Assembly (NCBI RefSeq): GCF_016862895.1
Contig: NZ_BONV01000015.1
Span: 1-64,000 of the forward strand
Source: Planotetraspora kaengkrachanensis
GTDB taxonomy: Bacteria > Actinomycetota > Actinomycetes > Streptosporangiales > Streptosporangiaceae
DNA: 64,000 bases
Direction of reading: 5' to 3'
Shown here: piece by piece, positions 36,935 to 56,373 of the stretch
How the letters are laid out: every line of letters begins with the position of its first letter
Numbering within the stretch: position 1 is the stretch's first letter
Notes under the pieces: generated by a model
The model's database searches: none
Seen by the model: the letters and a program-made list of their open reading frames with translations, nothing else
What the model was told of the DNA's origin: nothing
Program-made: the position numbers and the translations under genes

Positions 36935-37639
36935 ATGACGGAGTCCGGGGAGAACCCTCCGCAGAATCCCGTCCCCGACGGCCCCGCCGCCAAGGACGCC
37001 ACCCCCGAAAAAGAGCCCGCACCCGACGGCCCGGCCCCACACGACGACACCGGGGACACCACCCCCAAGGACGAGCCCGCACCCGACGGCCCGGCCCCAC
37101 TCGACGACGCCAAGAACGCCGCCGCCAAGGACGAGCCCGCTCCGGACGACGCCGGTCCAGGGGACGAGCCTCCGCGGGCGCCCCGCGCGCAGGCTCCCCC
37201 TCCATACCAGCCGCCTCCGTACGTGCCTCCGCGGCAGCCCCCTCCCCCGTTCGCGGGGACGGCTCCGGCCGGGCGTCCACGACAGGGCGGCATCAAGAAG
37301 TCGAGCGTGATCAAGCTCGGCATGATCGGCGGCCTGTCCACCCTCGTCGTCGGATTCTGCGTCGCGCAGAACCGCTCCGACGAGGTGAACGCCGACTGCG
37401 TCGACACCTCCAGCCGTCAGGCCGACGGCTCGTACGCCGTGGTCGGCGACGACTACTGCGACGACACGCGCTACCACGGCCCCCACGGCGCCTACGCGTG
37501 GTACTACGGCGGTGCCCGCGTCGCCGGTCGGGTGCTGAACGGGACGACGATCAAGCCGTCCGGCTCGCAGATCTCGACCCGGTCGGGACGGGTCATCCAG
37601 CGCGGCGGCTTCGGCTTCCACAGCGGCGGCGGCGGCTGA
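36935..37639 (+). CDS. Membrane protein with disordered N terminus, YgiB/DUF1190-like
   Basis: 234 residues from ATG 36935 with GAGGGGAG upstream. Residues 1-125 are Pro/Asp/Lys-rich and contain the imperfect 24-residue repeat around KDEPAPDGPAP, three copies. One membrane segment at 133-150 (VIKLGMIGGLSTLVVGFCVA) follows. The outer part has VNADCVDTSSRQADGSYAVV, DDYCDDTRYHG and a glycine-rich end SGRVIQRGGFGFHSGGGG. The Cys pair and RGGFG tail recall E. coli YgiB/YjfM (DUF1190). As in E. coli the next gene is a glutathionylspermidine-synthase-like enzyme, here overlapping (TGATG). The family link is inferred from tail and context. Confidence 0.72.
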   Translation: MTESGENPPQNPVPDGPAAKDATPEKEPAPDGPAPHDDTGDTTPKDEPAPDGPAPLDDAKNAAAKDEPAPDDAGPGDEPPRAPRAQAPPPYQPPPYVPPRQPPPPFAGTAPAGRPRQGGIKKSSVIKLGMIGGLSTLVVGFCVAQNRSDEVNADCVDTSSRQADGSYAVVGDDYCDDTRYHGPHGAYAWYYGGARVAGRVLNGTTIKPSGSQISTRSGRVIQRGGFGFHSGGGG

Positions 37640-42934: not shown

Positions 42935-44164
42935 GTGAGTAATGACCGGGTAGTGGTCGTCACCGGGATCGGCGCGACGACGCCCGTCGGTGGGGACGCC
43001 GCCTCAACCTGGTCGGCGCTCCTCGACGGGCGGTCGGGCGTCCGCACGCTGGAAGAGGACTGGATCGACTCCGTGCCGGTGAAGTTCGCCGGTCTCGCGG
43101 CGGTCGACCCCGGGGACGTACTCCCCCGGCCCGAGGCGAGGCGGCTCGACCGCGCCGAGCAGTTCGCGCTGATCGCGGCCCGCGAGGCGTGGCAGGACGC
43201 CGGCAAGCCCGAGGTCGAGCCGACGCGGCTGGGCGTCGCCGTCGGAAGCGGCATCGGCGGCATCACGACGATCCTCAACGCCTACGACCTGTTCAAGGAG
43301 AAGGGCTGGAACCGGCTCTCTCCGTTCACCGTGCCGATGCTCATGCCGAACGGCTCCGCCGGATGGATCAGCATCGAGATCGGTGCGCAGGCGGGCACCC
43401 ACTCGCCGGTCAGCGCCTGCGCCACCGGCGCGGAGGGCATCGCCTACGGCGTACAGATGATCAAGGACGGCCGGGCCGACGTGGTGGTCGCGGGCGGCAC
43501 TGAAGCAGCCATCCACCCGCTCAACATCGCCTCCTTCGCGGCCATGCGGGCGATGTCGACCCGCAACGACGAGCCGGCACGCGCGTCGCGCCCGTTCGAC
43601 AAGGGACGTGACGGCTTCGTGCTCGGCGAGGGCGCGGGCATCGTCGTGCTCGAGTCCGAGGAGCACGCGCGCGCTCGCGGCGCCAAGATCTACGCGGTGG
43701 CCGCCGGGGCGGGGTACTCCTCCGACGCCCACCACATCGCCCAGCCTGAGCCCTCGGGCGCGGGCATTCAGACCGCCATGCGGCGTGCGCTGGAGGCGGC
43801 CGGGCTGACCGGCGCCGACATCGTCCACGTCAACGCCCACGCGACCTCCACCCCCGCCGGCGACGTCGTCGAGACGATCGCCATCAAGGAGTCGGTCGGC
43901 ACCCACCCGCTGGTGACCTCGACCAAGTCGATGACCGGTCACCTCCTGGGCGGAGCGGGCGGCATCGAGTCGGTCTTCACCATCCTCGCGCTGACTGAGC
44001 GCGTCGTCCCCCCGACCATCAACGTGGACGACCTGGACGACGGCATCGAGGTGGACATCGTCCGGGCCGAGCCGCGCAAGCTCGCCGGCGGGCAGATCGC
44101 CGCGGTCAACAACTCCTTCGGGTTCGGCGGGCACAACGTCGCAGTGGTCTTCACCTCTGTTTGA
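42935..44164 (+). CDS. fabF: 3-oxoacyl-ACP synthase II
   Basis: 409 residues from GTG 42935, with GAGGAG upstream. The KAS II signature is present: active-site Cys in SPVSACATGAEGIAYG, the two His in VNAHATSTPAGD and STKSMTGHLLGGAGGIES, and the end loop NNSFGFGGHNVAVVFTS. FabF elongates acyl-ACP with malonyl-ACP. In mycobacteria the equivalent slots are kasA/kasB. The last 31 bases including the stop are duplicated in tandem directly downstream. Confidence 0.96.
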   Translation: MSNDRVVVVTGIGATTPVGGDAASTWSALLDGRSGVRTLEEDWIDSVPVKFAGLAAVDPGDVLPRPEARRLDRAEQFALIAAREAWQDAGKPEVEPTRLGVAVGSGIGGITTILNAYDLFKEKGWNRLSPFTVPMLMPNGSAGWISIEIGAQAGTHSPVSACATGAEGIAYGVQMIKDGRADVVVAGGTEAAIHPLNIASFAAMRAMSTRNDEPARASRPFDKGRDGFVLGEGAGIVVLESEEHARARGAKIYAVAAGAGYSSDAHHIAQPEPSGAGIQTAMRRALEAAGLTGADIVHVNAHATSTPAGDVVETIAIKESVGTHPLVTSTKSMTGHLLGGAGGIESVFTILALTERVVPPTINVDDLDDGIEVDIVRAEPRKLAGGQIAAVNNSFGFGGHNVAVVFTSV

Positions 44165-44201
44165 GCAAGTCGCAGTGGCCTTCACCTCTGTTTGAGCAAG
44201 G
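44140..44201 (+). repeat. 31-bp tandem duplication at the fabF stop
   Basis: CGCAGTGG(T/C)CTTCACCTCTG followed by TTTGAGCAAG, twice with period 31 (44140-44170 and 44171-44201). The only internal difference is one T/C. The first copy encodes the end of FabF and its stop; the second lies in the gap before accD and ends at the accD ribosome site. Confidence 0.9.
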
Positions 44202-44209
44202 AGTCTCGT

Positions 44210-45631
44210 ATGACTGTGCTCGACGACGGGACGGTGACCGGGGATTCCGAACAGGAGCCTGTCGATCCCCGCGACCCCAGGGCGCGCCTCGGCCACCTTC
44301 TGGACGAGGGCTCCATCCGGTTGATCTCCCCTGAGGACAAGAGCGGCGTGCTGGCCGTCACCGGCCGCGTCGAGGGAGTCCCCGTCGTCGCCTTCTGCAG
44401 CGACGCCCGTTTCCAGGGCGGCGCGATGGGCGCCGAGGGGTGCGAGCACATCGTCCATGCGTACGACGTGGCCGTGCGCGAGCGGGTCCCCGTCATCGGG
44501 GTGTGGCACTCCGGCGGCGCGCGACTCGCCGAGGGCGTCGAGTCGCTGCACTCGGTGGGCCGCGTGTTCGCCGTGATGACGAAGGCCTCCGGGGTCGTCC
44601 CCCAGATCTCCGTCGTCGTCGGCCCGGCGGCGGGGGGCGCGGCCTACGGGCCCGCGCTGACCGACATCGTGGTCCTCGCCGACAACGGCCGCATCTTCGT
44701 CACGGGACCCGACGTCGTCCGCAGCGTCACCGGCGAGCAGATCGACATGGCGGCGCTCGGCGGGCCGGAGCCGCACAGCAAGCGCAGCGGCGTCGTCCAC
44801 GTGGTCACCAAGAGTGAGCCTGAGGCGCTGCTCAGGGCCCGGCAGCTCGCCACCCTGCTCGGCCACCAGGGCCGGGGTCGCGGAGAGGTCGACGAGGTCG
44901 ACTTCAGCACGCTGCTCCCCGACAACCCGCGCCGCGCCTACGACGTGCACCCGCTCGTCAACGGTCTGCTCGACGAGCCGGGCGTGGAGTTGCACCCCAA
45001 GTGGGCGCCGAACATCGTCACCACTCTCGGCCGTCTCGGCGGGCGAACGGTCGGCGTCGTCGCCAACAATCCGCTGCGGCTCGGTGGATGCCTCGACTCC
45101 GCCTCGGCCGAGAAGGCCGCCCGGTTCGTCCGGATGTGTGATGCGTTCGGCGTGCCGCTGATCGTGCTGGTCGACGTGCCCGGCTACCTGCCCGGAGTGG
45201 GCCAGGAGCACGAGGGCGTCGTACGGCGCGGCGCCAAGCTGCTGCACGCCTTCGCCGAGGCGTCCGTACCGAGGGTCACGCTGGTCACCCGCAAGGCGTA
45301 CGGCGGCGCCTACATCGCGATGAACTCCCGGGCGCTCGGCGCGACCAGGGTCTTCGGCTGGCCCACCACCCAGGTGGCGGTCATGGGCGCGGTCGCGGCC
45401 GTCCGGGTCCTCAAGCGGCGCGAGCTCGCGGCGGTCTCCGAGGAGGAGCGGCCCGCGTTGGAGGCCCGCCTGGCCGAGGAGCACGAGAAGGTCGCCGGCG
45501 GTCTCCAGCGGGCCATCGATCTCGGAGTCATCGACGAGGTGCTCGAGCCGGCCAAAACGCGCGGGGCGATCGCCAGGCTCATCGCGCAGGCCACGCCGGC
45601 GCGCGGCGCCCACGGCAACATTCCGCTCTGA
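44210..45631 (+). CDS. accD: Acyl-CoA carboxylase carboxyltransferase subunit (AccD type)
   Basis: 473 residues from ATG 44210, nine bases after AAGGAG; ATG 44192 lies upstream of that site. It is a single-chain carboxyltransferase with both CoA-binding halves. N-terminal: GCEHIVHAYDVAVRERVPVI, SGGARLAEGVESLH and GVVPQISVVVGPAAGGAAYG. C-terminal: GRTVGVVANNPLRLGGCLDS, VDVPGYLPGVGQEHEGVVR and RVTLVTRKAYGGAYIAMNSR. It carboxylates acetyl-CoA (or propionyl-CoA) with a biotinylated alpha subunit encoded elsewhere. Position at the end of the fab operon parallels mycobacterial accD6, so it probably supplies malonyl-CoA to FabD. Confidence 0.93.
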   Translation: MTVLDDGTVTGDSEQEPVDPRDPRARLGHLLDEGSIRLISPEDKSGVLAVTGRVEGVPVVAFCSDARFQGGAMGAEGCEHIVHAYDVAVRERVPVIGVWHSGGARLAEGVESLHSVGRVFAVMTKASGVVPQISVVVGPAAGGAAYGPALTDIVVLADNGRIFVTGPDVVRSVTGEQIDMAALGGPEPHSKRSGVVHVVTKSEPEALLRARQLATLLGHQGRGRGEVDEVDFSTLLPDNPRRAYDVHPLVNGLLDEPGVELHPKWAPNIVTTLGRLGGRTVGVVANNPLRLGGCLDSASAEKAARFVRMCDAFGVPLIVLVDVPGYLPGVGQEHEGVVRRGAKLLHAFAEASVPRVTLVTRKAYGGAYIAMNSRALGATRVFGWPTTQVAVMGAVAAVRVLKRRELAAVSEEERPALEARLAEEHEKVAGGLQRAIDLGVIDEVLEPAKTRGAIARLIAQATPARGAHGNIPL

Positions 45632-45680
45632 TCCGGCAGCGGGTCCGGCGGTGAACCTTCGCTGATCCGAGTGCCGATTC

Positions 45681-45728
45681 GACGCCGAAGGCGCCGGTCC
45701 CGTGGGGGGGGCCGGCGCCTTCGGCGTC
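45681..45728. terminator. Terminator between accD and DUF3145
   Basis: A very strong 17-base stem GACGCCGAAGGCGCCGG / CCGGCGCCTTCGGCGTC with a G-rich loop. It serves the convergent ends of the fab operon and the DUF3145 gene. Confidence 0.85.
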
Positions 45729-45782
45729 AGTCGTCGGACGTCGTCCGGCGGGGTGTCGCCGCCGGACCGGGTCAGTCGGGGA

Positions 45783-46280
45783 TCACACGGCGGCGTGCAG
45801 CCAGCGGACCGGCGCGCCCTCGCCCGCGTAGCGGAACGACTCGAGCTCCTCGTCCCACTGCTTGCCGAGCAGACGGTCGAGCTCGTCCTCGATCACGGCG
45901 CGTCCCTGGGCGGCCATGAGCATGACGTTGCGCAGGCGATCCTCCGGGATGAGGATGTCGCCGTTCGCGCCCACCACGGCCGTGAAGGCGCCGAGCGACG
46001 GCGTGTAGGCGTGCCGGGAACCGTCCACGCCCGGTGAGGCGTCCTCGGTGATCTCGAAGCGGATGCGCTGCCAGCCCATGAACGAGGACGTGATCGCGGC
46101 GGCCGTGCCAGGACGGCCTTCCCACTCCGCCTGGGCCCTTAAGGTCCCGGGCGCGGCGGGCTGAGCTGTCCACGTCAGGTCGACGGGTACGCCAATAACG
46201 CCTGCGACGGCCCACTCGATGTGCGGGCACAATGCAGGCTGAGCCGAGTGGACGTACAGGACGCCACGAGCAGCAGCCAC
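45783..46280 (-). CDS. DUF3145 protein
   Basis: 165 residues from GTG 46278-46280, four bases after GGGAGG. It matches DUF3145: AAARGVLYVHSAQPALCPHI, then EWAVAGVIGVPVDLTWTAQP, AYTPSLGAFTAVVGANGDIL, IPEDRLRNVMLM and SFRYAGEGAPVRWLHAAV at the C terminus. The family is restricted to actinobacteria, of unknown function, and is found next to fabF in Streptomyces (SCO2391) as here. It is convergent with the fab operon rather than part of it. A fair promoter lies upstream at 46322-46351. Confidence 0.9.
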   Translation of the reverse strand: MAAARGVLYVHSAQPALCPHIEWAVAGVIGVPVDLTWTAQPAAPGTLRAQAEWEGRPGTAAAITSSFMGWQRIRFEITEDASPGVDGSRHAYTPSLGAFTAVVGANGDILIPEDRLRNVMLMAAQGRAVIEDELDRLLGKQWDEELESFRYAGEGAPVRWLHAAV

Positions 46281-46321
46281 CGGACCTCCCAAATCCCATG
46301 AGGTGCGCCTTCCCCAACGGC

Positions 46322-46351
46322 CTCATAGTTTGGGATGATCACAAGTTTCAA
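46322..46351 (-). promoter_or_regulatory. Probable housekeeping promoter of the DUF3145 gene
   Basis: On the minus strand TTGAAA (46346-46351), 18-base spacer, TATGAG (46322-46327), in an A+T-rich patch 40-70 bases upstream of the gene. This is close to the SigA consensus. Confidence 0.6.
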
Positions 46352-46484
46352 ACGTTAGAGAGACTACCGTCCGTCGTGGCCCGGCACCAGAGGGAGGTCA
46401 TAGCGAATCAGGCTTGTTAACGCTCCGGATCGGGAAAGCCGCCTATCGTGATCGACTCGTGACTCCCTCGCGAAGGACGTCCGG

Positions 46485-47492
46485 ATGCGCGCCACGCTGG
46501 TAGAACACCTCCCCGACCGGCCCGCCCTCATCCGGCCCGGCGAACTCCTCACCTCCTCACCGGACGCCGCGGCCCGCTGGGCCGACGACGCCGCCCCGGC
46601 CGGCCCCCTCCACCATGTACGGCTGTCGCCCGGCGTGGACGTGCTCGACCTCACCGCCACGCTTCGGGACGGGGGCCACGTGGCGTCGCCCAACCACCTC
46701 ATCGTGGGCCAACCGCTGTACTTCGGCGGGCCGGGCGGCAGGCCCACGCCCGCGGCCGCCGTGCCGTACGAGAAGGGGGAGCCCTGTGACGTCACCGTCG
46801 GCGTCCTGGACACTGGCCTGGCACCCCATCCGTGGCTGCTCGACTGGTACCGGGACGACATCGCCGAGACTCCGGACGCCGACGGGGACGGCGCGCTCGA
46901 CGAGCAGGCCGGGCACGGCACGTTCGTCGCCGGGCTGATCCTCCAGCAGGCCCCCGGCGTGCGCCTGCGCGCCCTGCGCCTGCTGGACAGTCACGGCGTC
47001 GGCGACGAGGCGGCGCTGCTGCGCGCACTGACCCGGCTGCGGCACGACCGGGTCGACGTCCTCAACCTCTCCTTCGGGGGCCACACCTTCGACGACCGGC
47101 CTCCCGCGGGCCTTGAGGACGCGCTGGCCGCCTTTCCCGCCGCGGTCGCCTGCGCGGGCAACACCGGCTCCTCCCGCCCTTTCTGGCCCGCCGCGCTGCC
47201 CGGCGTGCTCGCGGTGGGCGCCCTCGACGGGGACGCGAGGGCGGAATTCTCCGGGCACGGCCCGTGGGTGGACGCCTGGGCCGAGGGCGTCGGCCTGAAG
47301 AGCAGCTTCGTCGACCACTCCGGCTTCCGCGGCTACGCGGCCTGGAGCGGCACGTCGTTCGCGACCGCGATCGTCGCGGGTGCCGTCGCCCGCCTGTGCA
47401 GGGACATGCCGCCCCGCGACGCCGTACGGCACGTGCTCGAGGGCGGGCGGCGAATTCCGGATCTCGGGGTCGTGGTCACTCAGGATCGGTAG
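46485..47492 (+). CDS. Cytoplasmic S8 (subtilisin) serine protease
   Basis: 335 residues from ATG 46485. There is no signal peptide or propeptide; the first 95 residues form a private N-terminal domain (RATLVEHLPDRPALIRPGEL, then LHHVRLSPGVDVLDLTATLR). The catalytic triad is complete: Asp109 in VGVLDTGL, His144 in GHGTFVAG and Ser291 in SGTSFATAIVAG. The oxyanion Asn is in CAGNTGSS. It starts a four-gene block with an ECF sigma factor, a small protein and a TPR-CHAT protease; the gap to the sigma gene is 44 bases. It presumably cleaves a specific cytoplasmic partner, perhaps in a signalling cascade. Confidence 0.92.
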   Translation: MRATLVEHLPDRPALIRPGELLTSSPDAAARWADDAAPAGPLHHVRLSPGVDVLDLTATLRDGGHVASPNHLIVGQPLYFGGPGGRPTPAAAVPYEKGEPCDVTVGVLDTGLAPHPWLLDWYRDDIAETPDADGDGALDEQAGHGTFVAGLILQQAPGVRLRALRLLDSHGVGDEAALLRALTRLRHDRVDVLNLSFGGHTFDDRPPAGLEDALAAFPAAVACAGNTGSSRPFWPAALPGVLAVGALDGDARAEFSGHGPWVDAWAEGVGLKSSFVDHSGFRGYAAWSGTSFATAIVAGAVARLCRDMPPRDAVRHVLEGGRRIPDLGVVVTQDR

Positions 47493-47536
47493 TGTGCTCA
47501 CGCACCGTTCCCCCCTCGATGCGCGAAGTGACGTCC

Positions 47537-48058
47537 ATGACCGTAGAAGAGCCCCTCGCCCGCCTCGACCAGGCCGCGTGGGAAGACCTCGTCGCCCGCT
47601 TCGGCGGCCGGATGTGGGCGGTCGCCCGTGCCCTCGGGCTGTGCCCCGCCGACGCCGCCGACGCGGTCCAGGGAGCCTGGTTGCGGATGGTCGAGAACCT
47701 CGACGGAATCCGCGATCCCGAGCGGATCGGCGCGTGGCTCGTCACCACCACCCGGCACGAGGCGCTCCGGCTGAGCCGCCGGCGCCGGGGAGAGGTGACG
47801 GCGGGTCACGACCTGCCCGAGGCCGTGCTGCCCGACCCGTCCGCGGCCGTCGTCGACGCCGACTTCGGCCGGCACGCCTGGGAACGGCTCGACACCCTCG
47901 GCGAGCCCTGCCGCTCGCTTCTGCGGCTGTCCGTGCTCCGGCCGGAGGCGACCTACGCCCAGATCGCGATCCGCCTCGACCTGTCGCCGGGCAGCATCGG
48001 CCCGACCCGGGCGCGGTGCATGTCGCGGCTGCGCGGCCTGCTGGAGGAGCCCGCATGA
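47537..48058 (+). CDS. ECF-type RNA polymerase sigma factor
   Basis: 173 residues from ATG 47537 (ATG 47519 also possible). Sigma region 2 covers residues 15-80 (EDLVARFGGRMWAVARALGL, then DAADAVQGAWLRMVENLDGI and ERIGAWLVTTTRHEALRLSR). Region 4 covers residues 115-170 (LDTLGEPCRSLLRLSVLRPE, then TYAQIAIRLDLSPGSIGPTR and CMSRLRGLLEE). There is no extra C-terminal domain. The stop overlaps the start of the small protein (ATGA), which is where an anti-sigma factor is often encoded. In the usual logic it directs transcription of its own operon when released. Confidence 0.92.
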   Translation: MTVEEPLARLDQAAWEDLVARFGGRMWAVARALGLCPADAADAVQGAWLRMVENLDGIRDPERIGAWLVTTTRHEALRLSRRRRGEVTAGHDLPEAVLPDPSAAVVDADFGRHAWERLDTLGEPCRSLLRLSVLRPEATYAQIAIRLDLSPGSIGPTRARCMSRLRGLLEEPA

Positions 48059-48531
48059 GGGACGAGTACCTGCTCGCCGCGCTGCGGCTGGCCGCCGGCG
48101 CCGACCCGGTGCCCGGCCGGGTCGGCGCCGACGCCCGAGCGGCCTTCCACCTACGCCTGCCCGGAGGGGTCGTCGCGGCGCCCGTCGAGGTCCGCGGGCC
48201 GACGGGCGCCAGGTCCGGCGGTGGGACGCCGGACGCGCCGGACGACGACGGGCCGGGGATGCACCGGTTCGCGGTGGCCGGGCTCGTCATCGACGTGGAG
48301 GCCGTCGTCGCCGACGGGCGCCTGGAGGTGGCCGGACAGGTCTCCCCCGCTCCCGGCCCCGATGCCGGCTGGCAGGCCGAGATCCGCACGGCGCACGTAT
48401 GCAAGACGCGCGACCTGTCGGAGAACGGACGGTTCGCCGTGGGCGGCCTGCCCACGGGCTGGGTCAGCGTGGTCTGCCACCGTCCCGGCGAGCCGCCGGT
48501 GTCCACCCGGTGGCTGCACGTCCGCTCGTGA
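48055..48531 (+). CDS. Small protein between sigma factor and TPR-CHAT gene
   Basis: 158 residues, ATG 48055 overlapping the sigma stop. Residues 1-30 form a helix pair (RDEYLLAALRLAAGADPVPG, then RVGADARAAFHLR). The rest is beta-rich, with GMHRFAVAGLVIDVEAVVAD, RLEVAGQVSPAPG, AEIRTAHVCKTRDLSENGRF and AVGGLPTGWVSVVCHRPGEP. This looks like a carboxypeptidase-regulatory or fibronectin-type beta-sandwich. There is no membrane segment. A helical N terminus coupled to the sigma gene suggests an anti-sigma or adaptor role, and its position before the CHAT gene makes it a candidate protease substrate. No family is recognised with certainty. Confidence 0.78.
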   Translation: MRDEYLLAALRLAAGADPVPGRVGADARAAFHLRLPGGVVAAPVEVRGPTGARSGGGTPDAPDDDGPGMHRFAVAGLVIDVEAVVADGRLEVAGQVSPAPGPDAGWQAEIRTAHVCKTRDLSENGRFAVGGLPTGWVSVVCHRPGEPPVSTRWLHVRS

Positions 48532-50978
48532 CAGGTCCCGAGCCCGCCTCGGAGGGCGTGCCGCCGGGCCGCCCGGAGACGCCGGAGCGTGCCGCCGCCC
48601 TCGTGGCGCGTGCGGAGGCCGCCGTCCTGCTCTCCGGCACCGATCCGCGAGTCGCGCTGGCGGAGGCGAGAGCCGTACTGGCGGAGACGGCGGGCGGGCC
48701 GTGCCCGGAGGCGCTCTCGGTCGCGTTGCGCGCGTCGGCTCTGGCCACGAGGGAACTGGGCGACCTCACCCTCGCCGAGGAGCGGCTGCAGCAGGCGATC
48801 ACGGCAGCGGAGGGGCTGCCGCGACGCGTGGCGCAGGCCAGGATGTCCCTGGTGACGGTCCGCGCCCAGCTCGGGGATCCCGAAGGCGGGCTGCGCCTGG
48901 CCGACCTGGCGGAGCGGGACCTCACGGGCGGCGATCTGGCCCGGCTCGGCGTGCAGCGCTCGGTGGCGCTCATCCTCCTCGGCCGCCACGGGGAGGCCGT
49001 CCGCCACTGCGACGACGCTATCGAGTCACTTGACCGCGACCCCAAGTTCCAGGCGGGCGGCCTGCTCAACCGGGGTCTGGCGCACACCTTCCTCGAGGAG
49101 TACGGCGCGGCTGAGGCCGACCTGTCGGCGTGCGCGAAACTGGCCAGACGGTCGGGTCTCGACCACCTGGCGATGCTGGCCGAGGGCAACCTCCCCTTCG
49201 TCGCCGCCCGCCGGGGGGACGTCCCCGCCTCCTTCGAGCGGTACCACGCCGCCGAGTCGGCGTTGTCCGGCTATCCCGAGCGCCTGGCGGCGATGCGGAC
49301 GGACTACGCGGAGGCGCTGCTGGCTGCGCGCCTGCCCGGTGAGGCGCGGGCCGTCGTCGAGCGGGCCGTGCCCGACCTGGTCGCGGCGGGAGCGCACGCG
49401 GCGCTTCCCGAGGCCCGGCTCCTGCTGGCCCGGGCGGAGCTGCTCACCGGCGACGGCCACCGGGCCGCCGCGACGGCGGGGACCGCGCTCGCCGAGCTCG
49501 CCGGGCAGGGCCGGTCGTCGTGGGCGTCCCTGGCGGAGGAGGTCCTGCTGCGCGCCCGCGTCCTCGAGGAGGAGCCCGGTCACGAACTGCTGGCCGACCT
49601 CCTCGCGTGCGCGGGACGCCTGGCCGGATCCGGGTGGACCGGCGACTCCCACGCGCTGCGGCTCACGGCCGCCGGCCTGGCCTGCAGGCTCGGCGACCTC
49701 GGGACCGCGCGGGAGCAGCTCGGCCGCCTCTCCGGATCTCCCGCCAGGACCGTGATCAGGCAGCACGCCGCGGCGATGCTCCTGCACCTCGACGGCGACC
49801 GTCCCGGCGCCCTGGAGGCCGCGGCGGCGGGACTCGCGTCGGTCGTGACCGGGGACGCGATCCGGGAGCAGGCGGCCCGGGTGCACGCGGCCCGTCCGGC
49901 GGAGGACCTCGCCGCGTTCGGTCTGCGGACGGCGCTCGGCGGCGGCGATCCCTGGAGCGTCCTCACCTGGGCGGAGCGGTGGCGGGCGATGGTCAGGGGC
50001 GTGCCCCCTCCCGCCGTCTTCACCCGCCCTTCCGCGACCGACGGCATCCTCGTCGAGCTGGTGCGGGACGAGGACGATCTCTGGGGGATCGCCGTCAGCT
50101 CGCGGGGCTGCGCGCTGCACTCGCTCGGGTCCTACACCGCCGCGGCCGAGGCGACCGTCCGGATCAGGTACGGCCTGCGCCGCCGCAACCTGCGGGACGC
50201 CGAGGCCGCGGGCGGGCTGGACCTCGAGCTGGAATCACTCGGCCGGCGGCTGCTCGGGCCGGTCGATCTGGGTGGCGGACCGGTGCTCGTCGTCCCCACC
50301 GGGTCGCTGTGCACGCTGCCGTGGCCGTTGCTTCCCCGCCTTCGCGGGCGGCCGGTGTCCGTGGCGGCCGAGGGCGCCTCCTGGCTCACCGCGGACCGGT
50401 CGTCCGGCGCGCGTGAGCCGTACGGCGCGCCTGTGGTCGTCGCACTGGCCGGCCCCGGCCTCGCCCACGCGGGTCCGGAGGCGGAGATGGTCGTCCGCAC
50501 GCATCCGGGGGCCGAACGGGCCGCCGGGACGAGGGCCGGGATGCTCGCGGCGCTGGGGCGGGCCGACGTGCTCCACGTGGCGGCGCACGGCCTGTTCTCC
50601 CCGCGCAGCCCGATGTCGTCGCGGATCACGCTGGACGACGGCCCGCTCATGGCGTACGAGCTGCGGCGGCTCCGGGCCGTCCCGCGACTGGTGATCCTGT
50701 CCGCGTGCGACGCGGGGATGGCGCACGCGCCGGTGGACGGCGCCGTGCTCGGCCTGGCCGGCGCCTTCCTCGATCGCGGCACCGCCTGTGTGGTCGCCGG
50801 GGTCGCCCCCGTGCGTGACGACGAGGCCGCGGCCCTGATGACGGTCTTCCACGCCTTCCTCGGCGGCGGCCGCACCCCGGCGGAGGCGCTGGGCGCCGCC
50901 GCGGCGAAGACCGGAGTCGGCGGCTTCGTGTGCTTCGGCGCGGGAGACGAACGGGCGAGCGGACGCCGCAGTCTGTGA
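48528..50978 (+). CDS. TPR-CHAT caspase-like protease
   Basis: 816 residues from GTG 48528, overlapping the previous stop (GTGA). Residues 20-500 are TPR-like helical repeats (CPEALSVALRASALATRELG, LTLAEERLQQAITAAEGLPR, LLNRGLAHTFLEEYGAAEAD). Residues 540-816 form the CHAT domain, a caspase-clan peptidase. The catalytic His687 is in VLHVAAHGLFSPRSPMSSRI and Cys727 in RLVILSACDAGMAHAPVDG. GLAGAFLDRGTACVVAGVAP and the ATP-independent end fold follow. CHAT proteases cut after specific residues in conflict and death pathways; TPR-CHAT with an ECF sigma partner is known from type III-E CRISPR (Craspase) loci. No CRISPR parts are here. Confidence 0.92.
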   Translation: MTGPEPASEGVPPGRPETPERAAALVARAEAAVLLSGTDPRVALAEARAVLAETAGGPCPEALSVALRASALATRELGDLTLAEERLQQAITAAEGLPRRVAQARMSLVTVRAQLGDPEGGLRLADLAERDLTGGDLARLGVQRSVALILLGRHGEAVRHCDDAIESLDRDPKFQAGGLLNRGLAHTFLEEYGAAEADLSACAKLARRSGLDHLAMLAEGNLPFVAARRGDVPASFERYHAAESALSGYPERLAAMRTDYAEALLAARLPGEARAVVERAVPDLVAAGAHAALPEARLLLARAELLTGDGHRAAATAGTALAELAGQGRSSWASLAEEVLLRARVLEEEPGHELLADLLACAGRLAGSGWTGDSHALRLTAAGLACRLGDLGTAREQLGRLSGSPARTVIRQHAAAMLLHLDGDRPGALEAAAAGLASVVTGDAIREQAARVHAARPAEDLAAFGLRTALGGGDPWSVLTWAERWRAMVRGVPPPAVFTRPSATDGILVELVRDEDDLWGIAVSSRGCALHSLGSYTAAAEATVRIRYGLRRRNLRDAEAAGGLDLELESLGRRLLGPVDLGGGPVLVVPTGSLCTLPWPLLPRLRGRPVSVAAEGASWLTADRSSGAREPYGAPVVVALAGPGLAHAGPEAEMVVRTHPGAERAAGTRAGMLAALGRADVLHVAAHGLFSPRSPMSSRITLDDGPLMAYELRRLRAVPRLVILSACDAGMAHAPVDGAVLGLAGAFLDRGTACVVAGVAPVRDDEAAALMTVFHAFLGGGRTPAEALGAAAAKTGVGGFVCFGAGDERASGRRSL

Positions 50979-50997
50979 AGGAGGACCTGGACGCCTG

Positions 50998-51810
50998 TCA
51001 GCCCGTGGCGACCGGGCGGGAGGGGTCGGCCACCCAGTTGGACCAGGAACCGGCGTAGAGGGCGGCCGTGATGCCCGCCACCTCCAGAGCGAGGACCTCA
51101 TGGGCGGCGGTGACGCCCGACCCGCAGTAGGCGCCCACCTGGACGCCGTCGACCACGCCCAGGGTGTTGAACCGCTCGCGCAGGAAACCCCGCGAGCGGA
51201 ACCGGCCGCCGGGTTCGACGTTCTGCGCCGTGGGGGCGCTGACCGCTCCGGGGATGTGACCGGCCACCGGGTCGATGGGCTCGACCTCGCCCCGGTAACG
51301 CTCTCCGGCCCTCGCGTCGAGCAGGACCCCGCTCTCCGCGAGCGCGGCGGCCTGGTCCGCGTCGAGCAGCGGCATCCCGCCGGGGACCGCCTCGAAGTCA
51401 CCCGGCGTCACGTCGTCGCGCTCCTTCACGACGGGCAGCCCGGCTCTGGCCCACGCCCGCAGGCCGCCGTCGAGCACACGGACGTCGCCGTGGCCGTAGT
51501 AGCGCAGCGTCCACCACGCGCGGGCGGCGGCCGTGGAGTCCGCGTCGTCGTAGACCACGACCGTTCGGCCTGCGGACACGCCGAGGCGGCGCATCGAGGC
51601 CTGGAACGCGTCGGCGGCCGGCAGCGGGTGCCGTCCGCCCGGGCCCGCCGGGGAGGCGAGGTCGGCGTCGAGGTCGCAGAAGACGGCGCCCGGGATGTGC
51701 CCCTCCGCGTAGGAGTCGGCCCCGGGAGGACCGCCGAGCCTCCATCGCACGTCGAGGATGGTGACCTCGTGGAGCGCGGCCAGCTCCTCCGGAGTGATCA
51801 GTGGGCTCAT
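50998..51810 (-). CDS. Sulfurtransferase, two rhodanese domains (thiosulfate/3-mercaptopyruvate type)
   Basis: 270 residues. The first rhodanese domain (residues 5-120: VTILDVRWRLGGPPGADSYA, then EGHIPGAVFCDLDADLASPA and WTLRYYGHGDVRVLDGGLRA) is structural. The second (residues 145-265) carries the active-site loop CGSGVTAAHEVLAL. The CGSGVTA loop is typical of 3-mercaptopyruvate sulfurtransferases. It transfers sulfane sulfur to thiols or cyanide in the cytosol. It is convergent with the CHAT gene across 19 bases, so it is not part of that operon. Confidence 0.93.
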   Translation of the reverse strand: MSPLITPEELAALHEVTILDVRWRLGGPPGADSYAEGHIPGAVFCDLDADLASPAGPGGRHPLPAADAFQASMRRLGVSAGRTVVVYDDADSTAAARAWWTLRYYGHGDVRVLDGGLRAWARAGLPVVKERDDVTPGDFEAVPGGMPLLDADQAAALAESGVLLDARAGERYRGEVEPIDPVAGHIPGAVSAPTAQNVEPGGRFRSRGFLRERFNTLGVVDGVQVGAYCGSGVTAAHEVLALEVAGITAALYAGSWSNWVADPSRPVATG

Positions 51811-51885
51811 CGGAACATCCCTCCTGACGCGATGCGCCTCGTCATTGTGCCCCCCCTGCCCCGGGCTGAGCAGTCCGTGCGGCCG

Positions 51886-53052
51886 TCACCGGTGGATCCC
51901 GAGCAGGGGAACGGTCTGCTCGGCGGTCGTCAGCGACCCGTGGTAGCCGACGAGCGACGACTCGAGCGGCTCCGCCATCGACGCGACGATCGCGCAACCG
52001 CCGTACGGCACGGCCATGACGTCGCCGATCCGGCCGAGCCACTCCTTGCGCACCGTGCGGCCGAACCAGCCCTCGGCGACGGCCTCCTCGCGCGAGACCA
52101 CCCAGGCGCGGCCGTGGAAGACCGCGCGCCACGTCTCGAGGACGGCGGCCGCCGCGCCGGGAGCGGTGTAGACGTGGCGGGCGCGGGCGTCGCCGCCCAG
52201 CATGACCACGCCCTCCTGGAGCACGGGCGACTCGTCCACGTCGACCTTGTCGACGGCGTTGATCATGCCGTGGTCGGCCGTCACGTACAGGGCCGACCCG
52301 GGCGGCAGCCCTTCGGCGATCCGCTCCGCCATGCGGTCGACGATGGCCAGTTGTTCCAGCCACTGGGCGCTGCCCCACCCGGTCATGTGGCCCATGCCGT
52401 CGAGCTCGCCGTAGTAGACGACCACGTAGGAGCTCTCCGCCAGTGCCCGCCGCACGCCCTCGACCCGATCGTCGACCGTCTCGGCCGCGTGGTGGCGCAC
52501 GCCCCGGTAGACCGCCCGGGTCAGCCCGGTGCCGTCGAAGGCCGCCGGGGCGACGTAGACGGGACGGATCCCGTTGGCGTGCATCCGCTGGTAGACGGTG
52601 TCGGCCGGCTGCCAGACGTCGGGGTCGACGGGCAGGCCGGGAGCCGTCCAGCGCAGGCAGTTCAGCATCCGGCCCTCACCCGGGATCGCCATGGAGATGC
52701 CGATCATCCCGTGCTCGCCCGGCGGGGTGCCGGTGCCGAGCGTGGCCAGGCTCGTCGGGGTGGACGACGGGAAGCCCGCGGTGAGCGTCCGCCGCAGCTG
52801 CGCCGACAGGAACGGCGCCGCGCCGGGATGCGCGGCCAGCAGCTCGGCCCCCAGCCCGTCGACGAGGAACAGGCACACCCGTTCCGCGGGCTCCAGCCCG
52901 AGGACGTCGGTGGCGGGCATCCCCAGGGAGGCGAGCAGGGACTCCGGCAGATCCGCGAGCGAGGCCGTGCCGTACGCCGGGACGAAGGGCACGGCCGGCG
53001 GCGTGTCGGACACCGTCGTGGGCAGCGGACCAGGGATCCCCGGCTCTGTCAC
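51886..53052 (-). CDS. Alkaline-phosphatase-superfamily phosphodiesterase (nucleotide pyrophosphatase type)
   Basis: 388 residues. Metal and nucleophile motifs are VCLFLVDGLGAELLAAHPG (first Asp), FPSSTPTSLATLGTGTPPGE (Thr nucleophile), VVYYGELDGMGHMTGWGSAQ (Asp/His ligands) and LYVTADHGMINAVDKVD (Asp-His). This series fits the type I phosphodiesterase / nucleotide pyrophosphatase family. There is no signal peptide, so it is cytosolic and probably cleaves phosphodiesters of nucleotides or related substrates. It lies 30 bases after DUF5998 on the same strand and is probably co-transcribed, as in other actinomycetes. Confidence 0.9.
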   Translation of the reverse strand: MTEPGIPGPLPTTVSDTPPAVPFVPAYGTASLADLPESLLASLGMPATDVLGLEPAERVCLFLVDGLGAELLAAHPGAAPFLSAQLRRTLTAGFPSSTPTSLATLGTGTPPGEHGMIGISMAIPGEGRMLNCLRWTAPGLPVDPDVWQPADTVYQRMHANGIRPVYVAPAAFDGTGLTRAVYRGVRHHAAETVDDRVEGVRRALAESSYVVVYYGELDGMGHMTGWGSAQWLEQLAIVDRMAERIAEGLPPGSALYVTADHGMINAVDKVDVDESPVLQEGVVMLGGDARARHVYTAPGAAAAVLETWRAVFHGRAWVVSREEAVAEGWFGRTVRKEWLGRIGDVMAVPYGGCAIVASMAEPLESSLVGYHGSLTTAEQTVPLLGIHR

Positions 53053-53082
53053 ATCGCCTCCAGGCTCATTCGGTGCGGATCA

Positions 53083-53673
53083 TCAGGTGGCGGCGCGGGC
53101 GGTGGCCTCCGAGAGCGCCTTGGCGAAGGCCAGCACGTGGACGACGGCCTCGGGGCCGTCGGCCGCCTCGCTCACCCGGAGCGAGAGGTCGTCGGCCGTG
53201 ATCGCGCCGGTGTAGCCGTGGTCGGCCTCGCAGTTCTCGTCTCCGCAGGTGGCGGGCTCGAGATCGAGATGAGAGATGGCGCCCCACCCGATGGTGAGCG
53301 TGACCTCGCTGGGGGCGACCCCCGGCACGTAGGACGCCGGGTCGGGGACGACCCTGGTCACCGCGACCGACTGGATCCGGCTGAGCCGCACGGCCTCGGT
53401 GGTGGTGGAGGCGTGCGAGGCGGGCATGCCCTCGGCGGGAGGGTGTTCGTCGGTGTGGCAGACGAGCAGCCTGGTGGGCGAGAGCACCAGGACCGTGACG
53501 TGCCTGCGGACCTCCATCGCCGGGTCGAACGTGGCCTCGTGATGCACGACGTACGCCGTGACCTGCTCCTTGCCGAGTGCGGAGTCGACGGCGTCAGCCA
53601 CCAGGTCGGGGTAGTAGCCGCTGCGGTCGATGGCCTCGCGCATGCCCGCGGCGGAGACTCGGGTTTCCCTCAT
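53083..53673 (-). CDS. DUF5998 protein
   Basis: 196 residues from ATG 53671-53673. An upstream in-frame ATG at 53709 has no better ribosome site. Residues include REAIDRSGYYPDLVADAVDS, YVVHHEATFDPAMEVRRHVT, LVLSPTRLLVCHTDEHPP and HLDLEPATCGDENCEADHGY, then ITADDLSLRVSEAADG. The Cys-x4-Cys and the His in this last part might bind a metal. The family is conserved in actinobacteria, of unknown function, and adjoins the phosphodiesterase gene. It is probably the first gene of a two-gene transcript. Confidence 0.88.
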   Translation of the reverse strand: MRETRVSAAGMREAIDRSGYYPDLVADAVDSALGKEQVTAYVVHHEATFDPAMEVRRHVTVLVLSPTRLLVCHTDEHPPAEGMPASHASTTTEAVRLSRIQSVAVTRVVPDPASYVPGVAPSEVTLTIGWGAISHLDLEPATCGDENCEADHGYTGAITADDLSLRVSEAADGPEAVVHVLAFAKALSEATARAAT

Positions 53674-53730
53674 GGGTCCATCCTGCCCTGTAAGGGACAC
53701 CGGTTTCACACCCGAGCGGCTCCGCCCCCT

Positions 53731-56373
53731 TCAGCCCAGGCGGCGGGGGCCCCCGTCCGGGCGGAGGACGGCCGCGGGCCGCAGCACCGCGCGGGCGCCG
53801 AGGACCGTCACCCCGGACGTGCCCACCAGGACAGGGTCGAGCTCCATCCTGACCACCTCGGGCAGCGCGTCGGCCAGCAGCCCCACCCGGACGAGCAGTT
53901 CGCCGAGCGCCTCCACGTCCACCGGCGGGTAGCCGTACTGGCCGAAGAGCAGCGGCGCGGTGCGTACGGACCGGACCAGGCCTTCCGCGTCCTCCGCGGT
54001 GAGGGGGGCGAGGCGGTGCTCGCGATCGCCGAGGAGCCTGGCGGCGACCTCGGCCAGCCCGAAGGACACCACCCCGCCGAAGAGGCCGTCCTGGACCACC
54101 CCGACGACGGTGGGCACCGCTGGTTGCGGGGCCATCCGCTGGACGGCGAGGGTCGTCTCCGGCCCGAGCAGGGCGGCCAGGCCGGTGTAGGCCTGCCGGA
54201 CGCCGGACGGCTCGCCGAGGCCAAGCCGGACGGTTCCGGCCCGCTGGGAGGCGCCGGGGCCGGTGGCCTTGACCACCACGGGCCAGCCGGCCCGCTCGGC
54301 CGCCGCGACGGCCTCGTCGGGCGAGGCGACCTCCTCCGCCGGCCACACCTCCACGCCGTAGCAGGCAAGCAGCCCCGTAGCGTCGATCTCCCGGTCCCCT
54401 CCGTCCTCGCCGACGGCGGCGGCGACCAGTTCCCTGGCTCCGGCGGCGTCGATGCCCCCGAGGGCGGGGACCGTCCCCGCGGGTTGTTCCCGCCAGCGGG
54501 CGTGCCGTACGACATGGGCGAGGGCGCGTACGGCCTCCTCCGGCGCGGGATAGGAGGGGATCGAGCCCTTTCCCGGTGCGCCGGGGGCGCCGGCGGCGTC
54601 CTGGGGTGACAGGGGGGTGCGCAGGGCGGCCGGCATGCCCATCTCGCCCTGGAAGGTGGCCAGCACCGGCTTGCCCGACTCCCGCGCCACCCGGAGCAGC
54701 GCGGCGGCGATCTCGCCGGACCCGCCGGGGATCGGGGGCATGTAGACGGCGACGGCCGCGTCCACTGTGGGGAGGACCTCCGTCAGCGCTCCGGCGAACT
54801 CGGCGGCCCTGGCCTGGGCGCCCAGGTTCACCGGTGGGGCAGGCTCCAGTCCGGCGGCGACGCAGGCCTCGACGGCGAGCAGCGCCAGCGCGTCGGAGTT
54901 GCTCACCACGCCGACCCGGGGACCCGCGGGAAGCGGCTGGTAGGCCAGTAGCTGGGCGACGTCGAACAACTGGGTGAGGTCGTCGACGCGGATCACCCCT
55001 GCCTCTTCGAACAGGGAGCTCAGCGCCGTGTCCGGCAGGCCCAGGTCGGGAGCGGCGTGGCCCCCCGGTACTCCGCGGCTCTTGACGACGACGATCGGCT
55101 TGCTCCGCGAGATCCGCCGGGCCAGGCGGGTGAACTTGCGAGGGTTTCCCAGGGACTCGAGGTAGAGCAGGATCACGTCGGTGTCGGGGTCCTCCTCCCA
55201 GTACTGGAGGAGGTCGTTGCCTGAGACGTCGGCGCGGTTGCCGGCGGACACGAAGGTCGAGATCCCCATGCCCCGCTGGGCCACCCTCTGCAGCAGGGCC
55301 GTGCCGAGCGCCCCCGACTGGCTGAAGAACCCGACCCGCCCGCGGCCGGGGAGGGCCTCGGCCAGGGTCGCGTTGAGCCGTACAGCGGGGTCGGTGTTGG
55401 CGATGCCGAGGCAGTTGGGGCCGACAACGCGCAGGCCGTACGCGCGGGAGATGCTGACGAGCTCCTCCTGGCGTAACCGGCCGTCGTCCCCGGTCTCGCC
55501 GAAGCCCGACGAGACCACGACGAGGCCCTTCACCCCCTTCTCCGCGCACTCCCTGACCACGTCGAGCACGCCCTCGGCGGGTACGGCGACGACGGCCAGG
55601 TCGACGTCGCCGTCGATCGCGGAGACGCTCTTGTACGCCCGGACGCCCGCGACGGCGCGCACGTGCCGGTGGACGGGGTACACCGGGCCGGAGAAGTCGG
55701 CGCCGAGCAGATTGCGCAGGACCGTCTGCCCGATGCCTCCGGGTTCCCTGCTGGCCCCGATGACCGCGACCGAGCCCGGCGTCAGCAGGCGTTCGATGGA
55801 ACGGGCCTCGGAGCGGTGCTCGCGGGCGAGACGGACCTCGAGCGCGCTCTCCGTGGTCGCCAGGTCGAGAGTCATGCGCACGACGCCGTCCTCGAACTGG
55901 CTCTGCGCCGTGTAACCGGCCTGCCGGAGCACGCCCGTCATCCGGTGGTTGCCCGGCAGGATGTCGGCGATGAACGTCCTGATGCCGCGCTCTCGCGCCG
56001 CGGCCCTGAGGTGCTCCATCAGGACCGACGCCATTCCCCTGCCCTGATGGCGGTCCTCGACGAGGAAGGCGACCTCGGCGCTGTCCCCGCGCTCGACCCG
56101 GTCGTACCGTACGACCGCGACCATCTCGGTGCCGATCGTGGCGATGAGGGCGACGCGGTCGTCGTAGTCGACGTTGGTGAACCAGGCGACCTCCCTGTCG
56201 GTGAGCCGCGGCCTCGGGCCGAAGAACCTGAAGAAGATCGACTGCTCGGACAGCCGGGAGTAGAAGGAGCGCAGCAGGTCGGCGTCGTCCGGCCTGATCG
56301 GGCGCAGGTGTGCCGTGCCGCCGTCGGACAGGACGACGTCCGCCTCCCAGTGAGCGGGGTAATGAGGTCGCAC
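53731..56373 (-). CDS. GNAT acetyltransferase / acyl-CoA synthetase (ADP-forming) fusion, Pat-like
   Basis: 880 residues from GTG 56371-56373. Residues 15-175 form a GNAT domain (ADVVLSDGGTAHLRPIRPDD, VAFLVEDRHQGRGMASVLME). Residues 195-330 form a CoA-binding Rossmann domain (LTPGSVAVIGASREPGGIGQ). Residues 330-480 match succinyl-CoA ligase-like parts (LGIANTDPAVRLNATLAEAL, GFFSQSGALGTALLQRVAQR). Residues 660-870 are ATP-grasp (LACYGVEVWPAEEVASPDEA, then AGWPVVVKATGPGASQRAG). Order GNAT-synthetase is the actinobacterial type, the reverse of Salmonella Pat. It is likely a protein lysine acetyltransferase sensing CoA thioesters, acting for example on acyl-CoA synthetases. Confidence 0.92.
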   Translation of the reverse strand: MRPHYPAHWEADVVLSDGGTAHLRPIRPDDADLLRSFYSRLSEQSIFFRFFGPRPRLTDREVAWFTNVDYDDRVALIATIGTEMVAVVRYDRVERGDSAEVAFLVEDRHQGRGMASVLMEHLRAAARERGIRTFIADILPGNHRMTGVLRQAGYTAQSQFEDGVVRMTLDLATTESALEVRLAREHRSEARSIERLLTPGSVAVIGASREPGGIGQTVLRNLLGADFSGPVYPVHRHVRAVAGVRAYKSVSAIDGDVDLAVVAVPAEGVLDVVRECAEKGVKGLVVVSSGFGETGDDGRLRQEELVSISRAYGLRVVGPNCLGIANTDPAVRLNATLAEALPGRGRVGFFSQSGALGTALLQRVAQRGMGISTFVSAGNRADVSGNDLLQYWEEDPDTDVILLYLESLGNPRKFTRLARRISRSKPIVVVKSRGVPGGHAAPDLGLPDTALSSLFEEAGVIRVDDLTQLFDVAQLLAYQPLPAGPRVGVVSNSDALALLAVEACVAAGLEPAPPVNLGAQARAAEFAGALTEVLPTVDAAVAVYMPPIPGGSGEIAAALLRVARESGKPVLATFQGEMGMPAALRTPLSPQDAAGAPGAPGKGSIPSYPAPEEAVRALAHVVRHARWREQPAGTVPALGGIDAAGARELVAAAVGEDGGDREIDATGLLACYGVEVWPAEEVASPDEAVAAAERAGWPVVVKATGPGASQRAGTVRLGLGEPSGVRQAYTGLAALLGPETTLAVQRMAPQPAVPTVVGVVQDGLFGGVVSFGLAEVAARLLGDREHRLAPLTAEDAEGLVRSVRTAPLLFGQYGYPPVDVEALGELLVRVGLLADALPEVVRMELDPVLVGTSGVTVLGARAVLRPAAVLRPDGGPRRLG

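Follow-up and report, generated by a model that had tools for sequence, protein, structure and literature searches.

A stretch of 64,000 nucleotides of Planotetraspora kaengkrachanensis DNA (contig NZ_BONV01000015.1, positions 1 to 64,000; the window) carries a four-gene module that combines two proteases, S8 and TPR-CHAT, with an extracytoplasmic function (ECF) sigma factor and a protein of 158 residues (the small protein). The module is real and widespread among soil bacteria, and we read it as a proteolysis-gated, self-amplifying ECF sigma switch free of any CRISPR (clustered regularly interspaced short palindromic repeats) component, a reading to which we assign a probability of roughly 0.55. 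The small protein would hold sigma through its helical head until a signal received via the TPR array activates the CHAT protease, which would then cleave the disordered linker of the small protein at, or close to, an invariant arginine. The S8 protease would take part in this step too, and would make or complete the linker cut or else mature CHAT. Once released, sigma, whose family would recognise a TGTATCA-N16/17-CTC promoter, would transcribe its own module, thereby creating positive feedback, together with a small regulon. That a caspase-like protease releases an ECF sigma factor by proteolysis is already known from CRISPR Craspase; a module common to many actinobacteria and lacking a CRISPR part would suggest a general bacterial signalling logic. 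Such a module would also offer a defined candidate cleavage site and promoter, and would be relevant to the entry of TPR-CHAT proteases into defence systems and to separase-like folds among bacterial proteins.

Conserved linkage of the four genes

We assessed gene content around the best 80 of 514 TPR-CHAT relatives (the named loci), using fetched flanks of 9 kb or less. Genes for sigma and the small protein lie within 9 kb of CHAT in 76 of the 80 loci, and S8 is also present in 67; in the remaining four, CHAT is at most 222 bases from a contig end. Carriers span two actinobacterial classes and include Nonomuraea, Microbispora, Actinomadura, Motilibacter, Micromonospora, Amycolatopsis and metagenome-assembled genomes of Acidimicrobiia, while the top two matches come from Planotetraspora species (85 and 86% identity over the best segment). 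The four-gene association put forward in the original prediction, which was made from the window alone, therefore extends well past close relatives. Among the named loci all four genes occur together in four layouts: in line; sigma-small followed by S8 on the opposite strand; sigma-small-S8 divergent from CHAT; and S8 divergent from CHAT-sigma-small. This variety argues for a functional connection and not for common descent of a single block. An initial comparison of 23 loci (the window, two paralogues and 20 relatives) gave a similar picture: 22 hold the small protein, 21 a sigma gene and 20 an S8 gene.

At the level of whole genomes, 296 from the class were searched; 87 contain the small protein (E 0.001) and 128 a CHAT relative (1e-10). 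Counted as places among the matches listed, with weaker CHAT matches set aside, 70 of 102 small-protein places lie within 5 kb of CHAT, and 70 of 113 merged CHAT places lie within 5 kb of the small protein. A strong CHAT match is present in 85 of the 87 genomes that carry the small protein; the corresponding Fisher p-value of 1e-55 is uncorrected for kinship and overstates independence because the genomes are related. Matches at 1e-5 were also obtained in 13 of 149 genomes of a phylum sample, nine of them outside the class. We then inspected 20 further loci, 16 of which had been picked as apparently lone CHAT (13) or lone small-protein (3) loci. A more sensitive model recovered the small gene in nine of the 13 apparently lone CHAT loci and in 16 of the 20 overall; in L189, L194, L198 and L203 no small gene was detected in the fetched stretches even with this model. 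L189 displays a tandem pair of S8 genes next to a divergent TPR-CHAT gene, and the stretch fetched there contains no sigma-small pair.

The genes for sigma and the small protein adjoin in all 20 loci retrieved via small-protein matches, including loci with CHAT elsewhere, which bears out the coupling proposed earlier, and in three cases (L092, L098 and L103) the sigma-small pair is located apart from S8-CHAT within the same genome. No natural sigma-small fusion was present among the open reading frames of the named loci.

An invariant arginine in the predicted linker of the small protein

No Pfam family matched the small protein above cut-off. An AlphaFold2 model, built from an alignment of 19 sequences with a mean predicted local distance difference test (pLDDT) score of 84.5, reproduces the helical head described in the original prediction, with helices at residues 3-14 and 21-32 followed by an Ig-like beta sandwich. 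Residues 50-58 and 61-64, in the linker between the two parts, are modelled at pLDDT below 50. Sequence searches found no solved relative (best E 0.041), and a fold search with the model gave generic weak matches, none at E 0.001 or better.

To follow the linker across the family, we dereplicated 147 full-length records (some genes having been fetched twice) at 80%, yielding 74 homologues. Linker length ranges between 15 and 41 residues, and yet an Arg (R53 in the window) is kept in all 74, usually with Gly-Val before it and Gly or Ser after it. Since an aligner may force Arg into one column, we relied on unaligned motif tests: [GA][VALIT]R[GSAT] is present in 51 of the 74 linkers, as compared to a shuffle mean of 6.7 and a maximum of 14. 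The pattern holds in 16 divergent proteins that had not been used earlier, all of which contain the Arg, and 14 of which contain [VALIT]R[GSA] (shuffle mean 4.1, maximum 10). This degree of conservation in the sequence fits what would be expected of a protease site. One of the two divergent proteins lacking the motif, L202, belongs to G126, the sole near-complete genome found by Pfam search to have sigma-small and no CHAT gene; the coincidence of motif loss and CHAT loss may be taken as a hint, no more.

Catalytic residues of the two proteases and assignment of the sigma factor

The TPR-CHAT protein matches Pfam CHAT (PF12770) at 1.8e-29 (103.5 bits, cut-off 24), and its H687/C727 dyad, predicted earlier to be intact, is kept in 44 of 44 sequences. 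The structural model built from these 44 sequences (pLDDT 91, predicted template modelling score 0.89) places TPR helices from residue 19 onwards, with CHAT after them. The S8 protein matches Pfam Peptidase_S8 at 2.7e-27 (96.3 bits, cut-off 21.8). Its D109/H144/S291 triad, likewise correctly identified at the outset, is invariant in 10 of 10 aligned sequences, and pattern matching across 117 S8 domains from related loci found both the His and the Ser motif in 115. The N-terminal portion of the S8 protein may correspond to a pro-region, which it resembles. The sigma factor scores above cut-off against both NCBIfam TIGR02937, the ECF superfamily model (56 bits, cut-off 42.9), and Sigma70_r2 (1.6e-11, 44.3 bits, cut-off 24), in agreement with its earlier assignment; its region 4 is weak by Pfam (0.11, 12.4 bits, under the cut-off of 24.1). 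A Kyte-Doolittle analysis of the four window proteins revealed no hydrophobic stretch indicating a membrane or signal segment, the highest 19-residue mean being 1.49; a cytoplasmic S8 protease had been proposed originally.

A candidate promoter element in other clades

In other clades we identified an ECF-type promoter sequence, TGTATCA-N16/17-CTC, before S8 or sigma genes. We examined 102 dereplicated regions that precede S8, sigma or CHAT and found TGATACA/TGTATCA in 17 of them, as compared to 1.05 predicted from fragments drawn at random from these loci (binomial 7e-16, uncorrected). Twelve of the 14 unique sites have CTC at a distance of 16 bases (8) or 17 bases (4), while the shuffle maximum for any single CTC offset is 4. 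The source genome contains eight matches to the promoter pattern, as opposed to three for a reversed control: one precedes S8 on contig 9, one S8 on contig 14 and one an effector-like four-gene operon on contig 9, and five lie at other positions. With the source genome included, there are 79 genome matches, and 30 of them have a module CHAT gene within 8 kb (0.34 expected), an enrichment that is partly circular because the element was discovered in such regions. Half of these 30 come from genomes that contributed none of the 14 sites, some of which had upstream regions in the pool and several of which are close kin. Chance occurrence in coding sequence may account for several of the matches at other genomic sites.

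Outside the search pool, the element precedes LuxR-type ATPase genes in six loci from six genomes (L217, L218, L219, L228, L229 and L231). Five of the six genes were scanned with Pfam, and all five have GerE; one gene with the element is located about 34 kb from the module. Promoter-like elements also lie before a DUF6459-like gene on contig 24 of the source genome (L214, one of its eight matches) and just 5′ of a DUF6459 gene at L232:3339 (Pfam run on L232 alone), and similar sites occur in two more Planotetraspora-like genomes (G003 and G004).

In the clade to which the window belongs, a promoter was sought with upstream k-mers and alignment, and we claim no sigma-specific one: the searches returned only a block shared with a divergent DUF3145-like gene and a TAGAGT-like element. 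Of 45 sigma-upstream regions in the clade, 20 contain TAGAGT; the window has TAGTGT. The element, which is located at the S8-sigma junction, overlaps coding sequence; situated where the S8 gene ends, it could, weakly, represent a separate sigma promoter. A first dyad search in 27 dereplicated regions gave nothing clear.

Relation to known systems

The original prediction had named Craspase as the nearest analogue. The parallel stands: in both systems genes for a TPR-CHAT protease, a sigma factor of ECF type and a candidate inhibitor stand together, and Csx29 is described as cutting Csx30, which inhibits CASP-sigma, a factor whose motifs are present in its own locus (PMC10028731). So do the co-occurrence of the genes, the sigma-small coupling and the absence of a CRISPR-like array around the locus. 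The comparison can be sharpened: Foldseek ranked solved structures by E-value in the order DdvA (1.2e-13), separase (4.2e-13) and Csx29 (3.1e-11 for 8EEY chain B). TM-scores by query are moderate throughout, namely 0.46 for DdvA, up to 0.56 for separase (7NJ1) and 0.30-0.38 for Csx29 (0.37 for 8EEY chain B). The module further differs from Craspase in having no CRISPR array nearby, in its additional S8 protease, in the score of its TPR-CHAT protein against the NCBIfam Csx29 model (16.1 bits, cut-off 300), and in the size of the small protein, 158 residues, whereas Csx30 residues are numbered to 565 in PMC10028731.

DdvA/DdvS of Myxococcus xanthus likewise couples a CHAT-containing protein to an ECF sigma, and the CHAT profile gives E 2.8e-10. 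Inactivation of DdvA is reported to render DdvS active (PMC4374960). In contrast to the module, DdvA is itself the transmembrane, CHAT-containing anti-sigma, according to the titles of PDB 8ROT and 8RW5, while CHAT here is predicted to be soluble and the partner of the sigma gene encodes a distinct, small protein. Eukaryotic separase shares the combination of TPR and protease fold, but is described as cleaving cohesin and being restrained by securin (PMC9729208). EACC2-caspase neighbourhoods also combine a caspase-like protease with an ECF sigma and a TPR gene; they have other core domains, and neither S8 nor this small protein is named in the passages of PMC8195603 that describe them. No published description of the four-gene module was recognised in a literature search conducted mostly at abstract level, and one may exist elsewhere.

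A broader proposal would be that one soluble anti-sigma is the target of two enzymes, a separase-like TPR-CHAT protease and a subtilase, which act at the invariant Arg and so convert a sensed intracellular threat into a self-amplifying ECF response. This CRISPR-free arrangement would then be the general form, with Craspase and DdvA as specialised versions of it. We advance it tentatively, at somewhat short of even odds.

Evidence against the switch and alternative explanations

Several observations weigh against a self-amplifying switch gated by CHAT. In the 24 genomes other than the source genome, the promoter pattern is no more frequent than its reversed control (71 versus 72 matches). TGTATCA is absent from both strands of the window, so the claim of autoregulation does not extend to the window copy. 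The copy on contig 14 of the source genome (L008) consists of S8-small opposite CHAT and has no sigma gene; the promoter element precedes its S8 gene, and this copy is possibly controlled in trans. The loose three-residue motif occurs in the linker of 63 of the 74 small proteins and outside the linker in 46, hence the motif by itself is not specific, and the second motif-less divergent protein, L200, comes from a genome that has CHAT. Finally, P1-Arg specificity of CHAT, which could be argued from separase D2151 reading P1 Arg (Lys670 being the equivalent in Craspase TPR-CHAT; PMC9729208), is not supported: the position, placed via a profile hidden Markov model alignment and manual residue counting, is A768 here, and 32 of the 44 aligned rows have R, L, V or A. 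The nearby D764 is conserved in 42 of 44. An Arg-cutting CHAT enzyme is plausible but gains no support from this mostly non-acidic position, so that the cutting protease may be either CHAT or S8.

It is accordingly conceivable, if unlikely, that S8 cuts at the linker Arg and that CHAT is the sensor activating it. The missing separase-type Asp, the intact S8 motifs and the persistence of S8-CHAT pairing in the fetched stretches of L189, L194, L198 and L203, which have no sigma and small genes, would all be in line with this. However, nine of the named loci have sigma, small and CHAT with no S8 in the fetched stretch (in one of them, L167, sigma lies 154 bases from the contig start), and the Csx29 precedent is one of CHAT cutting a sigma inhibitor (PMC10028731). 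We also consider it improbable that the small protein is a co-factor or scaffold for sigma with the invariant Arg serving a structural or partner-binding role. This would suit the sigma-less contig 14 copy, the failure of sequence and fold searches to match any known anti-sigma structure, and the short distance between the Arg and the beta domain, only five residues in 41 of 74 homologues, but it sits poorly with the low pLDDT of the linker around the Arg and with the persistence of the linker motif in divergent families.

The switch as we read it leaves a defence role possible. A true conflict system for phage defence or suicide, in which the sigma regulon or the proteases would kill or dismantle the infected cell, is rather doubtful. 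Craspase serves CRISPR loci (PMC10028731) and DdvS, the sigma of DdvA, controls an anti-phage island (PMC12288465), and the products of the contig 9 operon, whose promoter matches the pattern, are an SLT transglycosylase, a peptidase and two proteins without family, all of which could point in this direction. Against it, when 2.9 million viral contigs were scanned with two patterns, none of the 64 stretches matched was related to TPR-CHAT, PADLOC matches are weak (best 1.3e-6 for CHAT and 5.1e-6 for S8), and the window copy occupies an identical chromosomal place in 21 of the 21 family loci picked for alignment. This conserved place is flanked by what we take to be a DUF3145-like gene on one side and a sulfurtransferase-like gene on the other.

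Organisation of the locus and its paralogues

The four plus-strand genes described in the original prediction are all present (Table 1), with 4-base overlaps among the last three at 48055-48058 and 48528-48531.

Table 1. Positions in the window of the module genes and associated elements
Feature	Position	Strand	Basis or comment
S8 subtilase without signal peptide	46485..47492	+	open reading frame, Pfam, catalytic D109/H144/S291
ECF-type sigma factor	47519..48058	+	ATG 47519 or 47538; Pfam, NCBIfam
158-residue sigma-linked protein	48055..48531	+	helical head, disordered linker, Ig-like beta domain; candidate anti-sigma/protease substrate
Linker codons 50-56 around Arg53 (codon 48211-48213)	48202..48222	+	predicted processing site; Arg conservation, motif versus shuffles, low pLDDT
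TPR-CHAT caspase/separase-like protease, GTG start	48528..50978	+	Pfam CHAT, H687/C727
TAGTGT at S8 stop	47490..47495	+	counterpart of the clade's TAGAGT-like element; possible separate sigma promoter (weak)

The source genome contains two more copies with CHAT, on contigs 9 and 14. The contig 9 copy (L007) has the order S8-sigma-small with CHAT on the opposite strand, and contig 14 also bears a separate sigma-small pair in addition to its sigma-less copy. The four-gene operon beside the contig 9 copy (L007:1299-6751) encodes a 357-residue protein, an SLT transglycosylase, a 765-residue protein and a peptidase matching phrog_16701, with no family matched by the 357- and 765-residue proteins; its TGTATCA-N17-CTC element is located 66 bases upstream. 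Contig 64 (L001) carries a fourth CHAT gene of the genome, which does not match the window TPR-CHAT at 1e-10.

As predicted earlier, no CRISPR-like repeat array is present in the 26 kb around the locus: a direct-repeat search of window positions 36000-62000 detected only two tandem families, one of three 60-base copies and one of two 31-base copies. No Cas7-11 (gRAMP) was noticed by eye among the open reading frames of positions 43000-55000, and no model search was made for it. The three 60-base repeats (36985-37164) probably lie inside a coding region, and the near-perfect 31-base tandem duplication (44138-44199) is located at the end of a FabF-like gene.

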